Source: a virus. From it: a stretch of 32,013 bases of DNA. The DNA lies in IMG/VR virus record IMGVR_UViG_3300034142_000025, positions 1 to 32,013 of that record. One strand, given 5' to 3'. A model generated the notes under the pieces. It saw only the letters and a program-made list of their open reading frames with translations. It was not told the origin of the DNA and did no database searches. Below are positions 1,819 to 7,481 of this stretch, piece by piece; position 1 is the stretch's first letter; each line of letters opens with the position of its first letter. The position numbers were made by a program, and so were the translations under genes.

Positions 1819-2553
1819 ATGACTGGCGTTCTGATTACGGAAAATATTACTGGCTACTGCGGCGCTTGCGGTCAGCAGGTCGGCGACACGCATTCGTGCC
1901 CCGCCTTTGTACGGCATCCCGATGGTTCCATTTCGATGACCATCCCAAGCGGCGAGGATGAAGTCGAACGGGCGCCGCATATTCTGAGGGACGCACTAAG
2001 CTCGCTGCACGAGGCCGTGCTGGGTCTAGCGGAGCGCCAGTCGAGCGGGGAACGCCTCACTTATTTTGAGGCTAGCCCCTCGCGAGACATTGAAGCCTTC
2101 ACGCGGTGGGCTCGACTGAATGACGCGCAAAAGAAGGCCGCCGCCGCGCTCGCCTCACATCCCAAGCCCTCAGTACAAGAAGAGGTGGTGGAGGCGGCTA
2201 AGCGGGCTGACTTGGGCTTGGCGATCCTCGGCAGTGTTCGGGAGCGAGTCGAGGAAGCCAGCCACGACGACGAAGGCCGCTGGATCACTTGTAACGGCTG
2301 TCACGAAACAGTCGATGGGCAGGAGACGGGGGATTATCCCTACAGTCCTGACTTCGGCTGCGTCATCGGCGGCGGCTGTATGGAATGCGGCGGGCTCGGG
2401 GCGATTTGGGACACCACCGACTATGCAGCCAACGCCGAAGCGATGATGGCCGGTGAAGCAGCCCTCACCCGTACTGGGGAGGCGGATGGCAACCCCCCTT
2501 GTGAGACGCCGCCCACGGACGACGGACCGTCTGTGGGCGAGAGCCTACCGTAG
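1819..2553 (+). CDS. Cys-rich hypothetical protein, probable cargo gene
   Basis: 244 residues with an AAGGAG ribosome-binding site just upstream of the ATG. The family is not recognised. Two cysteine clusters could bind zinc: C14xxC17 with C27 and H25 near the N-terminus, and a C-terminal group (CNGCHE, then CVIGGGCMECGG) at about residues 158-193. The middle is a helical, Glu/Ala-rich segment that may be coiled coil. Base composition is visibly less GC-rich and codons less biased than in flanking genes, suggesting recent acquisition. It lies between replication and packaging genes, a usual place for morons. The last ~20 residues are Pro/Thr-rich and may be poorly conserved. Function unknown. 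Confidence 0.65.
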   Translation: MTGVLITENITGYCGACGQQVGDTHSCPAFVRHPDGSISMTIPSGEDEVERAPHILRDALSSLHEAVLGLAERQSSGERLTYFEASPSRDIEAFTRWARLNDAQKKAAAALASHPKPSVQEEVVEAAKRADLGLAILGSVRERVEEASHDDEGRWITCNGCHETVDGQETGDYPYSPDFGCVIGGGCMECGGLGAIWDTTDYAANAEAMMAGEAALTRTGEADGNPPCETPPTDDGPSVGESLP

Positions 2554-2623
2554 CATCCCGAGCTTAGCCGCCGGCCCTCGGCCTGCTAGCCTCGCCGCTC
2601 CCGCCCCACACGAGGCCTCGGCC

Positions 2624-2860
2624 GTGGAAGACCCGCTCGCCTTTCTCGCCCGCTCCGGCTTCCCCGTCACTCGCACGGCCGGCGGCCGGTTCGACATTCC
2701 CAATTTGGCGATGGGCATGACGGCCGGCGAGGTGATCGGCCTTTGGCTGCGGCTGAGATGCTGGCCGGAGCCGGCGCCCGACGTGGGCCATTGGATGCCC
2801 GCTGACGGGGGCCTTGACGGCCGGGGCGACGCGGTTCAGGCTGCGCTTTCTATCGTCTGA
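2624..2860 (+). CDS. Small hypothetical phage protein
   Basis: 78 residues from a GTG start at 2624. The frame is also open upstream to ATG codons at 2453 and 2486, but those would overlap the preceding gene by 70-100 bases and encode an Arg/Pro-rich tail of shadow-like composition, so I prefer the GTG. The protein-like part begins VEDPLAFLARSGFPVTRT and includes GRFDIPNLAMGMTAGEVIGLWLRLR, a compact soluble domain. No family is recognised and no membrane segment is visible. It ends 11 bases before the lipoprotein gene, which suggests the same transcript. The start remains uncertain. Confidence 0.5.
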   Translation: MEDPLAFLARSGFPVTRTAGGRFDIPNLAMGMTAGEVIGLWLRLRCWPEPAPDVGHWMPADGGLDGRGDAVQAALSIV

Positions 2861-2871
2861 GGGGGCTCAAG

Positions 2872-3195
2872 ATGAAACGGATCATGATGATTGCCGCGGC
2901 GGCCGCGATGGTGGGCGCGTGCGCGACGACCAAGACCATGCAGGCGATCGGCGGCAGCCGCTCGGACGGGGTGGTCCGGCTGGCCTATGAATATAATATG
3001 TTCGAGAACCCGCAGGTGGACCCGGTGCAGGCGCTCGAGACGGCGCGTTCGCGGTGCAAGGTGTGGGGCTATACCGACGCGGAGGCCTTCGGCGCCGGGA
3101 CGCAGCAATGCCAGCAGTCGAACGCCTATGGCAGCTGCATCAAGACGATGGTGACCGTCGAATATCAGTGCACCGGGGCGAACACGCCCAGCTAG
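2872..3195 (+). CDS. YecR-like lipoprotein
   Basis: 107 residues. The N-terminus is a lipoprotein signal: a basic start (MKR), a short hydrophobic stretch, and a lipobox VGAC with the acceptor cysteine at about residue 17. The mature part has the pattern of the YecR-like lipoprotein family: GGSRSDGVVRLAYEY, then VDPVQALETARSRCKVWGYTDAEAF, ending with a conserved VEYQCTG. Four further cysteines could form disulfides in the periplasm. A GAGGGGG ribosome-binding site overlaps the preceding stop. Inference: a membrane-anchored periplasmic protein, possibly expressed by the lysogen. YecR-like proteins are known in prophages, but their role is not established. Confidence 0.7.
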   Translation: MKRIMMIAAAAAMVGACATTKTMQAIGGSRSDGVVRLAYEYNMFENPQVDPVQALETARSRCKVWGYTDAEAFGAGTQQCQQSNAYGSCIKTMVTVEYQCTGANTPS

Positions 3196-3403
3196 CAGCG
3201 ATTCGAATGGAGCAGGTCGCGGCGTTCGTGGACGCCGCGGCCTGACGGCGTGCGCGCACGAAAATAAATCCCCTTGCCGAGGGAACCTTTTCGTGTCACC
3301 AATTCATCAACGTGGCGAGTTGCGCCAAGCGACAAGCGCTTCACCGCAAAACGTCCCTCATTCGCATTGGTTCCCTCCCCTCCCCGCTCCCGCGAGGTGC
3401 GCC

Positions 3404-3682
3404 ATGGCCGACGCCTCACGCTTGCTTGCCGGACTGGCGCTGCCTCGGCGGTTCGCCTGCCGCCCGCTCGACGGTTACGACCTGCCGCCGCTCAACCATG
3501 CGCTCCACCACCGGCTGGCGGTGACGCTCGACGGGCGGGCGGTGTGCGGCGTGGTGGCGGCGGATGCCGATGCGGGCTTCATCGTCGCCATCGCCCGCGA
3601 CGAGACGGGCAACATGATCAGCGAGGGCGGCGCGGCCAGGCTCGCGGAACTGAGGGGCGCCGTCGTCATCGGCTGGGCCTGA
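3404..3682 (+). CDS. Small hypothetical phage protein upstream of HNH gene
   Basis: 92 residues beginning MADASRLLAGLALP; the ATG at 3404 follows a GAGGTG ribosome-binding site. The frame is open further upstream, but that part looks non-coding. The sequence contains AVTLDGRAVCGVVAADADAGFIVAIARDETGN, a beta-rich pattern without a recognised family. Its TGA overlaps the ATG of the next gene (HNH endonuclease) by one base, so the two are translationally coupled. It sits immediately before the packaging module. No membrane segment or catalytic motif is apparent. Confidence 0.6.
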   Translation: MADASRLLAGLALPRRFACRPLDGYDLPPLNHALHHRLAVTLDGRAVCGVVAADADAGFIVAIARDETGNMISEGGAARLAELRGAVVIGWA

Positions 3683-4050
3683 TGCCGAGCCAGCCGCCGG
3701 TGTTCAGGATGCCGGGCGCGGCGCCGGCCCGCAAGGCATGGGCACGGCCCGCCTCGCCGTTCGCGAGCAACGAAGACAGGCGCATCCGCGGGCGCGCTGG
3801 ACAGAAGCTGCGCCGCCAGGTGCTGAGCGAGGAGCCGCTGTGCCGGGTGTGCCTGGAGCAGGGGCTGACCGCGGCGAGCGCGATCGCCGATCATATCGTG
3901 CCGCTGGCTTGGGGCGGCGCGCCGGGGCGCGAGAACATGCAGGGGCTTTGCGAGCCGTGCAGCGACGCGAAGACGAAGCGGGAGAGCGTGGCTGGCGCGG
4001 ATCGCTGGCGGCGCGGCGCGGGCAGCCGGGGGGCGGGGTCTAATCTCTGA
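3682..4050 (+). CDS. HNH endonuclease (packaging-associated)
   Basis: 122 residues. The HNH domain is clear: zinc cysteines C54xxC57, the catalytic ADHIVPL block (D70-H71), then N85 and a second zinc pair C90xxC93 in LCEPCSDAKTKRE. This is the McrA/HNH group typically encoded next to terminase genes. Known biology: in HK97-like phages (for example HK97 gp74) the HNH protein works with terminase in cos cleavage and head morphogenesis. Here it precedes terS by ~150 bases, fitting that role. The start overlaps the previous stop (TGATG), so translation is coupled. The N-terminal ~30 residues are Pro/Ala-rich and the C-terminus is Gly/Arg-rich. Confidence 0.88.
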   Translation: MPSQPPVFRMPGAAPARKAWARPASPFASNEDRRIRGRAGQKLRRQVLSEEPLCRVCLEQGLTAASAIADHIVPLAWGGAPGRENMQGLCEPCSDAKTKRESVAGADRWRRGAGSRGAGSNL

Positions 4051-4204
4051 GCCGGTGCAAGCGGACACCGGCGGCTAAGTCAAAGTTTTACGCGGGCGAA
4101 ATCAAAGGTAAAAAGTTCGCGGTTTTGGGAACTCGCCCTGTGGGCGTCGAAGGCCCCGGCTCTGAGGGGTTCTGACGTAGGCGTCGTGGGGCGGGGATGG
4201 GTCG
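4051..4204 (+). other. Intergenic region before terS: hairpin and candidate cos/promoter region
   Basis: The region opens directly after the HNH stop codon with a perfect 7-bp hairpin (GCCGGTG / CACCGGC, 4051-4057 and 4066-4072, 8-base loop) without a clear T-tract. A locally A/T-richer stretch with several AAA and TTTT runs follows (about 4078-4130). HK97-like phages usually place cos just upstream of terS, so this is the best candidate site in the window for cos or a late promoter. No cohesive-end sequence could be identified, so this is a positional inference only. Confidence 0.35.
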
Positions 4205-4756: not shown

Positions 4757-5164
4757 ATGGTCGAGAGCGCGAGCGAGCGGCGCAAGAAGTCCTGCTATGT
4801 CGGTGCCCCCGCGATCTTCGCGCTGGAGGCCGCGTGCAAGCAGGTTGCGGAAGCGTTCGGAGGCTATGCCAGCGGCGGCGGCCTTTATCTGGTCGGATCG
4901 GCGCTGGAGCGGCCGGACTGGCGCGACGTCGACCTACGTTTCATCTTGCCTGATGCTGAGTTCGAGCAACTCTTTCCCGATGCTGGCCGGCATTGGGAAT
5001 TCGATGAGCGTTGGTTGCTGCTGACGGTGGCAATCTCGGAGCGGCTGTCGAAGATCACCGGCCTGCCGATCGACTTCCAGTTCCAACCCCAGTCGCACGC
5101 CAATGAGCGCCACGCCGGGCCCCGCCACGCCGTCGGCCTGCGGTTCGCGAAGGAGGCGGGGTGA
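4757..5164 (+). CDS. Nucleotidyltransferase-fold protein in the terminase operon
   Basis: 135 residues. The centre carries the signature of the polymerase-beta-type nucleotidyltransferase superfamily: G47-S48, then D57-V-D59-L (VGSALERPDWRDVDLRFIL), and a third acidic strand LPIDFQF with D106. All three metal-binding acids are present, so the protein could be catalytically active, transferring a nucleotide to an unknown substrate. The C-terminus contains a His/Arg-rich motif, HANERHAGPRHAVG. Nothing resembling an antitoxin (HEPN) partner is adjacent. It sits between terS and terL with a 6-base gap to terS and ~7 bases to terL, so it belongs to the packaging operon. The superfamily call is from motifs; the substrate is unknown. 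Confidence 0.7.
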   Translation: MVESASERRKKSCYVGAPAIFALEAACKQVAEAFGGYASGGGLYLVGSALERPDWRDVDLRFILPDAEFEQLFPDAGRHWEFDERWLLLTVAISERLSKITGLPIDFQFQPQSHANERHAGPRHAVGLRFAKEAG

Positions 5165-5171
5165 TGCGCCT

Positions 5172-7481
5172 ATGGCCGAGCAGCGCGACTATGTCGCGAT
5201 CGCCGAGGGCTATGCCCGCGACGTCGTCGGCAAGAAAATACCGGCCTGCAAATGGGTGCGGCTCGCTTGCCAGCGTCACCTCAAGGACCTGACGAAGAGC
5301 CGGCGCAAGGCCTATCCGTTCCGGTTCGACGCGGCCAAGGCCGTCCGGGCCTGCAAGTTCATCGAGATGCTGCCCCACACGAAGGGCAAGTGGGCGGCGC
5401 ACAAGGAGCTGTTGAAGCTCGAGCCGTGGCAGGCGTTCATCGTCTGCTGCGTCTTTGGGTGGGTGAAGAAGGGTACCGGCCCGAAGCCGGAGCCGGCCCA
5501 GCCGCCGAACGAGCTTCGCCGGTTCCGCATCGTCTTCCTGGTGGTACCGAGGAAGAACGGCAAGTCGCCGCTGGCCGCCGCGATCGGCGTCTACATGTTC
5601 ACCTTCGACAAGGAGTTCGGTGCCGAGGTCTATAGCGGCGCGACCAACGAGAAGCAGGCCTGGGAAATCTTCCGGCCGGCGCGGCTGATGATCGACCGGA
5701 CGCCGGCACTGAAGGCCAAATACGGGATCGAAGTCGGCGCGGGAACGCTCCAGCGGGCGGTCGACGGCAGCCGATTCGAGCCGGTGATCGGCAAGCCCGG
5801 CGACGGCGCCAGCCCGAGCTGCGCGCTCCATGACGAATATCACGAGCATGCCGACCGGGACCAGGTCGATACGATGGAAACCGGCATGGCGGCGCGCGAG
5901 CAGCCGCTGCAGGTGATCGTCACGACGGCCGGGGATAACCTCGCCGGCCCCTGCTACGCCGACATTCAGGACCATCGCCAGGTCCTGGAGGGCGTCCGCG
6001 AGAACGACGAGCTTTTCTACATCGAATATACGATCGACACGAAGCCGTACACCGAGATGGCCGAGTGGGACGATGCTCTGCGACGTCTGGATGGGGTGTG
6101 CACGTGCGGACTTGTGAAGCCCACCCTGATCGGCGAGCTCGCGCGCGAGGCCTTTGCGGCGCTTGCTACGACAGGCAGCTCCGGGAAAAAGACCCGGAGT
6201 ACGCCGAGCGCCAGCGCGCCAACGGTCGCGCCTGGTATCATCGCAATCGGGATAAATGCAGCCAGTCCGCCAGACGCTGGCGCGAGAAGCCGGGCAATAA
6301 AGAAAAAATCCGCAACAACAAACTTGCCGTCCAGTTCGGCCTCACCAGAGCCGAATATGATGAACTCCTTTCGCAGCAGCGCGGCGGCTGCGCAATCTGC
6401 CACGCTCGCGAGAACCTGTGCGTGGATCATTGCCACTCTTCAGGGGATGTTCGGGGCATCCTTTGCCGACAATGCAACAGCGCGATCGGTTTTTTGGGGG
6501 ATTCTGAGGAAGGTATACAACGCGCACTCGACTACCTGCGCGGTTCGGGGCGCAAGTCTTAGAAAGACAGGTGTTTCAATCACCGTGCCGGCGGACGACT
6601 GGAAGTCGGAAGCCGCGCTGGTCAAGGCAAATCCGAACCTCGGCGTGTCGGTCAATACCGACTTCCTGCGCGCCCGCCTGCGGGACGCGATCGCCACCCC
6701 TCGCAAGGCTGCGGTCTATAAGACGAAGCACCTCAATCAGTGGGTGTCGGCGCGGGCGGCTTATTTCGACGTCGAGGCATGGAGGGAGTGCGCGGATCCG
6801 GCGATCCCGATCCGGGCAGTCGACGCGCTGGCGCTGCCGGAACTGCGGGGGCGGCGCTGCAATCTCGGACTCGACCTTGCGTCAAAGGTGGACATTGCCG
6901 CGCTGGAATATCTGATCCAGCCGATGGGCGAGAGGCCGACGCCCGACGATCCCTACATCCGGATCGGCCGCTACTTCGTCCCGGCCGACCGGGTCGCGCT
7001 GGTGTCGCACTATCAGGGCTGGGATGCCGATGGCCTGCTCGACGTCACGCCGGGCGAGATCATCGATTATGACGAGATCGAGCAGGCGATTATGGAGGCG
7101 ACGAGCCTGTTCCAGGTCGAGCACGTCGCTTACGACCCGCACCAGGCGACGCAGCTTTCAACCCGGCTGATGAAAGAGGGCGTGCCGGTCATCGAATACC
7201 GGCCGATCGTGCTCAACTTCTCCGAGCCCATGAAAGAGCTCGACGCGCTGATGAAGCTGAAGGGCAACCCTCGGGGGCGCCGGGTTCGGCACGGCGGCGA
7301 CCCGGTCATGGAGTGGCAGATCTCGAACGTCGTGGCGCAGCCCGACAAGAAGGACAACGTCTACCCCACGAAGCCGCGAGACGAAGCGAAGATCGACAGC
7401 CCGGTGGCGCTGATGAGCGCGCTGGGCGTGTCGATGACGGCCGAAGCGGCGCCGAAGTCATTCTGGGAGGCGATGGCATGA
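5172..7481 (+). CDS. terL: Terminase large subunit with in-frame open insertion
   Basis: The start is the ATG of MAEQRDYVAIAEGYARD; upstream codons in frame are non-conserved. Translation of the open frame gives 769 residues, about 180 more than HK97-like TerL proteins. The N-terminal ATPase is intact: Walker A-type PRKNGKS at residues 126-132, Walker B followed by catalytic acid in LHDEYHEH (D221-E222). The C-terminal nuclease is also intact: D568 (LGLDLASK), D655 (AYDPH) and D742 (KIDSPVAL). Between FYIEYTID (~residue 289) and PADDWKSEAALVKANPNLG (~residue 473) lies foreign sequence that encodes an endonuclease in another frame; in the terL frame it reads as Ala/Ser/Thr-rich non-homologous protein. 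Role: ATP-driven packaging motor and genome cleavage. Whether the long form is functional is unknown. Confidence 0.9.
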   Translation: MAEQRDYVAIAEGYARDVVGKKIPACKWVRLACQRHLKDLTKSRRKAYPFRFDAAKAVRACKFIEMLPHTKGKWAAHKELLKLEPWQAFIVCCVFGWVKKGTGPKPEPAQPPNELRRFRIVFLVVPRKNGKSPLAAAIGVYMFTFDKEFGAEVYSGATNEKQAWEIFRPARLMIDRTPALKAKYGIEVGAGTLQRAVDGSRFEPVIGKPGDGASPSCALHDEYHEHADRDQVDTMETGMAAREQPLQVIVTTAGDNLAGPCYADIQDHRQVLEGVRENDELFYIEYTIDTKPYTEMAEWDDALRRLDGVCTCGLVKPTLIGELAREAFAALATTGSSGKKTRSTPSASAPTVAPGIIAIGINAASPPDAGARSRAIKKKSATTNLPSSSASPEPNMMNSFRSSAAAAQSATLARTCAWIIATLQGMFGASFADNATARSVFWGILRKVYNAHSTTCAVRGASLRKTGVSITVPADDWKSEAALVKANPNLGVSVNTDFLRARLRDAIATPRKAAVYKTKHLNQWVSARAAYFDVEAWRECADPAIPIRAVDALALPELRGRRCNLGLDLASKVDIAALEYLIQPMGERPTPDDPYIRIGRYFVPADRVALVSHYQGWDADGLLDVTPGEIIDYDEIEQAIMEATSLFQVEHVAYDPHQATQLSTRLMKEGVPVIEYRPIVLNFSEPMKELDALMKLKGNPRGRRVRHGGDPVMEWQISNVVAQPDKKDNVYPTKPRDEAKIDSPVALMSALGVSMTAEAAPKSFWEAMA
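6039..6590 (+). mobile_element. Endonuclease-bearing insertion inside terL
   Basis: Boundaries are approximate, set where TerL homology appears to stop (after FYIEYTID) and resume (at PADDWKSEA). The segment is about 550 bases, is visibly less GC-rich than terL, and is almost filled by an endonuclease VII/HNH-type gene. Only ~65 bases precede and ~30 bases follow that gene, too little for an ordinary group I intron core. Its length is apparently a multiple of three and it has no stop in the terL frame. Most likely a homing-endonuclease-type insertion; self-splicing has not been shown. Confidence 0.6.
6104..6562 (+). CDS. Endonuclease VII (HNH) homing-type endonuclease nested in terL
   Basis: 152 residues from a GTG at 6104, preceded by a GATGGGG ribosome-binding-like stretch. 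The frame differs from terL. The C-terminal half has the recombination endonuclease VII signature: zinc pair C96xxC99 (CAICHARE), catalytic DHCH (108-111), then RGILCRQCNSAIGFLGD with zinc pair C121xxC124. The N-terminus has a small Cys motif (CEAHPDRRARARGLCGACY) common in this group, followed by a basic helical region. Known biology: members occur free-standing or as homing endonucleases in phage introns and intergenic spaces, often near terminase. Inference: a selfish homing nuclease that targets uninterrupted terL alleles. Composition is less GC-rich than flanks. Confidence 0.82.
   Translation: MRTCEAHPDRRARARGLCGACYDRQLREKDPEYAERQRANGRAWYHRNRDKCSQSARRWREKPGNKEKIRNNKLAVQFGLTRAEYDELLSQQRGGCAICHARENLCVDHCHSSGDVRGILCRQCNSAIGFLGDSEEGIQRALDYLRGSGRKS

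Follow-up and report, generated by a model that had tools for sequence, protein, structure and literature searches.

An endonuclease VII (EndoVII) gene lies within the terminase large-subunit gene (terL) of the viral DNA analyzed here (the window, a 32-kb record of 32,013 nucleotides), and the terL frame stays open across it. The same arrangement was found at the same terL site in other viral contigs, where the host frame is preserved far more often than the nuclease sequences predict. The nested gene is very probably a homing element that operates without splicing and is written over a linker, translated and probably disordered, that joins the ATPase domain of TerL to its nuclease domain.

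The interrupted terL gene and its nested nuclease

The gene order of the window is terS, terL, portal, protease, capsid, adaptors, and tape measure. An HNH endonuclease gene (PF01844; 3274–4050), a common neighbor of packaging genes, lies 5′ of terS, and a 135-amino-acid ORF with no Pfam or PHROG match occupies positions 4757–5164 between terS and terL. The terL frame, on the plus strand like the parts of the gene and insert described below, has no stop codon from 5103 to 7481, and its likely start at ATG 5172 gives a gene of 769 codons. The product has the ATPase and nuclease domains and the invariant motifs of an HK97-type large terminase (phrog_9), and the solved structure closest to its model is the HK97 large terminase. 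The Pfam matches to TerL_ATPase (PF03354) and TerL_nuclease (PF20441) flank residues that are absent from uninterrupted relatives. In the alignment, these empty relatives read ...YT(I/V)D and then xx-DDW directly, with a spacing of exactly two codons in 83 of 85, whereas in the window YTID and DDW are 185 codons apart (6039–6593). The alignment placed the 5′ junction at 6039 and the 3′ end at 6587, with an uncertainty of up to two codons (to 6593), and thus defined a stop-free insert of ~549 nt, or 183 codons. The first exon-like part of terL (5172–6038) contains the N-terminal region and ATPase domain and ends in ...EYTID; the second (6594–7481) begins with DDWKSEAAL and encodes the nuclease domain. 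The claim of an earlier reading made from the sequence alone (the sequence-only reading), that both domains are intact but split by ~184 codons, was borne out. In the AlphaFold model of TerL, both domains are confidently predicted and the linker between them has pLDDT values mostly below 50 and ends in a short, confident strand; the linker is therefore predicted to be probably disordered.

Within the insert, a leader (6039–6103) read only in the terL frame precedes the EndoVII gene (6104–6562; 152 amino acids), which occupies the third frame of terL. The tail 3′ of the nuclease stop codon (6563–6593) reads KTGVSITVPA in the terL frame and corresponds to a predicted strand running into DDW. The out-of-frame ORF matches Endonuclease_7 (PF02945) with an E-value of 1.7e-21, contains the paired cysteines and DHCH ... 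CN.A.G core of the family, and, by profile, matches T4 endonuclease VII of the PDB. Its structure model is confident (88.7), and a Foldseek search with that model returned no significant match. Judged from alignment, translation of the nuclease probably begins at GTG 6104 rather than GTG 6065, because ATG is found at the aligned position in 11 of 12 homologs. The gene had been credited with its own GTG start and a ribosome-binding-like stretch; the GTG start stands, probably at 6104, but the second feature is weak in the window, and a good Shine-Dalgarno sequence precedes the nuclease start only in some loci (e.g., L014 and L016).

Recurrence at one site and preservation of the terL frame

Searches of public viral contigs with the nuclease identified 11 more distinct loci (L006, L009–L014, L016, L017, L091, and L095; 12 in total) in which EndoVII lies at this site of terL with an unchanged frame relation. 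These loci were chosen because the nuclease lay in terL, not for openness of the host frame. In all 12, the nuclease uses the same alternative frame of terL and the YTID-to-DDW stretch, 555–681 nt long, is a multiple of three. The sequence-only reading had held that homologs with the extra TerL residues and no nuclease gene would speak against an insertion; none occurred among the loci found. One insert-free terL (L159) carries 39 nt instead of 6 nt where the insert would lie, which may be what remains of a lost insert. In L013, a run of seven tRNA genes (5583–6372) lies 3′ of the inserted terL. The 3′ part of the window nuclease (6416–6547) is 79% identical in DNA to that of L012 over 132 nt, compared with 68–70% for the terL exons, and recent exchange or double coding constraint may perhaps explain this similarity. 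A search of GTDB genomes with EndoVII gave distant matches only, including one that lies within a helicase-methylase.

The terL frame is unbroken in 11 of the 12 loci (the window and 10 others). The expected number of stops was obtained by reshuffling the synonymous codons of each nuclease. Across the 12 nuclease genes, 1 stop was observed in the terL-read frame against 33 expected, and the lowest value in 1,000 simulations of the set was 20. In a control of 71 EndoVII genes located outside terL, 525 stops were observed against 489 expected, and none of the 71 was stop-free. The leader and tail segments outside the nuclease gene give a parallel result, with no stop in 339 codons of the terL frame and 24 and 19 stops in the other frames. 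Taken by itself, the window is within chance (P of no stop 0.22–0.25, given the nuclease protein), so the significance of the open frame comes from the 12 loci together and not from the window. It could be argued from the window value that high G+C content simply opens alternative frames and that the nesting is meaningless. With 1 stop where 33 are expected, and with insert G+C of 37–60% (ten loci), this explanation is refuted for the set and retains next to no probability.

The exception, L016 (408–2777), is the sole terL-nested EndoVII with a stop in the terL frame, a single TAG that leaves terL ORFs at 408–1631 and 1689–2777. The TAG is probably a real stop, because other ORFs there also end in TAG; an ATG is present 3′ of it, and the L016 terminase may be made in two pieces. 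This locus, together with an in-frame GTG at 6585 in the window shortly 5′ of the nuclease domain, is what could be said for a general explanation in which the insert splits or inactivates the gene, leaving TerL in two pieces or decaying. Such a reading is most unlikely for the set, since the frame is open in 11 of 12 loci against a strong expectation, and the terL exons are under purifying selection with invariant motifs.

Substitution rates were compared in one pair, L009 and L010, to which all of the following values refer. The terL exons gave dN 0.07 and dS about 1. In the insert, the nuclease frame gave dN 0.13 and dS 1.16 (dN/dS about 0.11), whereas the same bases read in the terL frame gave dN 0.27 and dS 0.27 (ratio about 1). 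By these rates, the nuclease protein is under purifying selection while the overlapping terL peptide drifts.

Splicing and bypass as alternatives to a translated linker

The sequence-only reading had left two branches, a tolerated translated linker or removal of the segment by an unrecognized compact splicing or bypass element. In favor of an intron, mobile EndoVII genes do sit in a group I intron of Vequintavirus terL. In the Vequintavirus MaxBurger, the group I intron around EndoVII scored 48.7 bits (E 8.3e-10), just short of the curated cut-off of 50, and the terL frame runs into stops at once and is full of them throughout the intron. The Vequintavirus terL intron with its EndoVII gene was noted at L126:683–3113 and L128:2411–3001. 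The annotation of KR698074 gives the name terminase large subunit to the nuclease ORF itself, apparently in error. The Rfam search for group I cores proposed earlier was run and found no intron match, and hence no group I ribozyme core, in the window insert or the 11 others; the same search detected the Vequintavirus intron in the positive control, L126. The consensus fold of the 12 inserts was negligible (−4.7 kcal/mol), with no conserved RNA structure. Group I or other catalytic RNA was rejected on these grounds. A compact self-splicing intron of an unrecognized type, or some other removal of the insert from terL mRNA, would in addition give no reason for stop avoidance in the host frame or for lengths in multiples of three, and the control intron is rich in stops; we consider it highly improbable.

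An intein was likewise rejected: Pfam searches of the terL-frame inserts from the window and L010 gave no match and so no in-frame splicing domain, the insert ends vary, and the nuclease is read in a different frame. Translational bypass has a phage example in T4 gene 60, where ribosomes hop a coding gap that adjoins a mobile nuclease, and by analogy a bypass or programmed frameshift might skip or join the segment here. Neither an open frame nor a length divisible by three would be needed for bypass, and no conserved take-off or landing structure was seen in the inserts. The nuclease frame also has stops 5′ of its start in several loci, and a bypass or frameshift is barely credible. Between the two branches, the evidence strongly favors the translated linker (11 of 12 loci with an open frame, all lengths multiples of three, stops avoided far beyond chance) and lends no support to splicing or bypass (no intron match, no conserved RNA structure, and a control intron unlike the inserts).

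Mobility, precedents, and a possible wider class

The inserts are patchily distributed at one fixed site. On the terL tree, a quick tree with two long branches, inserted genes are scattered among empty ones with nine changes of state, at least six of them forced by well-supported branches. The EndoVIIs of inserted terL genes cluster (2 changes versus 11 for random labels), and a single clade of terL-nested EndoVIIs is compatible with the data (AU p 0.19). A single old insertion that was inherited vertically and never moved was nevertheless rejected because the terL hosts are scattered, although the EndoVIIs fit one clade. The empty terL of L001 shares 77% identity with that of the window. A far closer comparison is provided by L011, which, to judge from its contig number, probably belongs to an isolate genome. 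Its terL exons are ~96% identical in DNA to the terL of Pseudomonas phages P7869, PMG1, and PP9W2, which has no insert, and the length difference is exactly 666 nt. Adjacent to the L011 junction (2816–2827), all four YTID codons are synonymously changed relative to the empty alleles, from TACACGATCGAC to TATACAATAGAT. Such changes are expected if the flank traveled with the insert, and they suggest that the L011 flank was co-converted.

We propose that a homing endonuclease gene inserted in phase at one fixed site between the TerL domains, in the third frame of terL. The terL message would be translated whole and unspliced into a 769-residue terminase with a probably disordered linker of ~183 residues that the working enzyme would tolerate. 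The endonuclease would be made separately, by internal initiation at a conserved ATG or GTG near the 5′ end of the insert. In mixed infections, it would presumably cut empty terL alleles at the site, and repair would then copy the insert together with some flanking sequence. Selection would maintain the nuclease protein and keep stops out of the terL frame, leaving the linker amino acids otherwise nearly free to drift.

This proposed element can be set against several known systems. The Vequintavirus terL intron (e.g., MaxBurger, MZ501093) likewise places a mobile EndoVII gene inside terL but differs in having a recognizable ribozyme and stops in the terL frame, in being annotated as a joined gene, and in an EndoVII placed away from these in the tree. 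Phage terminase inteins share in-phase insertion in a conserved gene with an open host frame; here, by contrast, there is no splicing domain and the nuclease is out of frame. In phage Aeh1, the free-standing homing endonuclease mobE splits nrdA and two proteins result. This system and the bypass cassette of T4 gene 60 resemble the present case in that a homing endonuclease has intruded on an essential coding sequence with no canonical intron involved, but they yield two proteins or a ribosomal hop, whereas the host frame here is unbroken.

The closest precedent is the ShiLan domain, an out-of-frame HNH nuclease in a mycobacteriophage methylase whose frame remains open (PMC11855218; Gosselin et al. 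2023, PMC9957025). Because of it, the claim in the sequence-only reading of a wholly new arrangement was too strong. The two cases share in-phase insertion at a conserved site, a third-frame nuclease that starts at a GTG close to the 5′ end, an open host frame without intein or intron signature, and a patchy distribution. They differ in that the ShiLan nuclease is a classical HNH in a methylase called non-essential by its authors (PMC11855218, PMC9957025), whereas here an EndoVII occupies the essential terminase large subunit, 12 divergent loci are known, selection for the open frame is quantified, and a ~96%-identical empty allele exists. The text of the ShiLan paper mentions neither EndoVII nor a terminase as host, and a literature search, with bioRxiv outside its scope, found no paper on EndoVII overprinted in terL. 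The out-of-frame kind of nuclease therefore has one published precedent, and the essential host gene and the EndoVII family are new.

Two further nested EndoVII genes, found outside terL, point to a wider class. In L027, an EndoVII gene (2989–3408) lies out of frame in a DEAD-helicase-like gene (1841–4105) with 0 stops in the host frame against 2.9 expected; a search for uninterrupted relatives of this helicase found none. In L089 (1701–4976; Variovorax paradoxus ISL-3), EndoVII lies in a helicase-methylase gene in the opposite alternative frame, with 0 stops against 3.4 expected, and the host gene is related to mycobacteriophage helicase/methylase genes.

For annotation, a terL with 150–200 extra residues may conceal a second gene. 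Homing, cleavage specificity, internal initiation, and linker tolerance can be tested directly with the near-identical filled and empty terL alleles of Pseudomonas phages. Homing endonucleases in essential genes have been thought harmless only by way of an intron or intein; the 12 terminases seem to have taken a third route, in which a nuclease gene is laid over a translated linker, with preservation of the host frame by selection supported statistically. We put it at somewhat beyond an even chance that homing endonucleases of this overprinted kind are a general class of mobile elements that need no splicing. On that view, unrelated nuclease lineages (HNH and endonuclease VII) would have entered several genes of their hosts (terL, the L027 helicase, the L089 helicase-methylase, and the published methylases) and would persist there, essential genes included, because the host frame is held open by selection and a drifting linker is tolerated by the host protein. 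Long overlapping genes and linker protein made de novo would then be the result.
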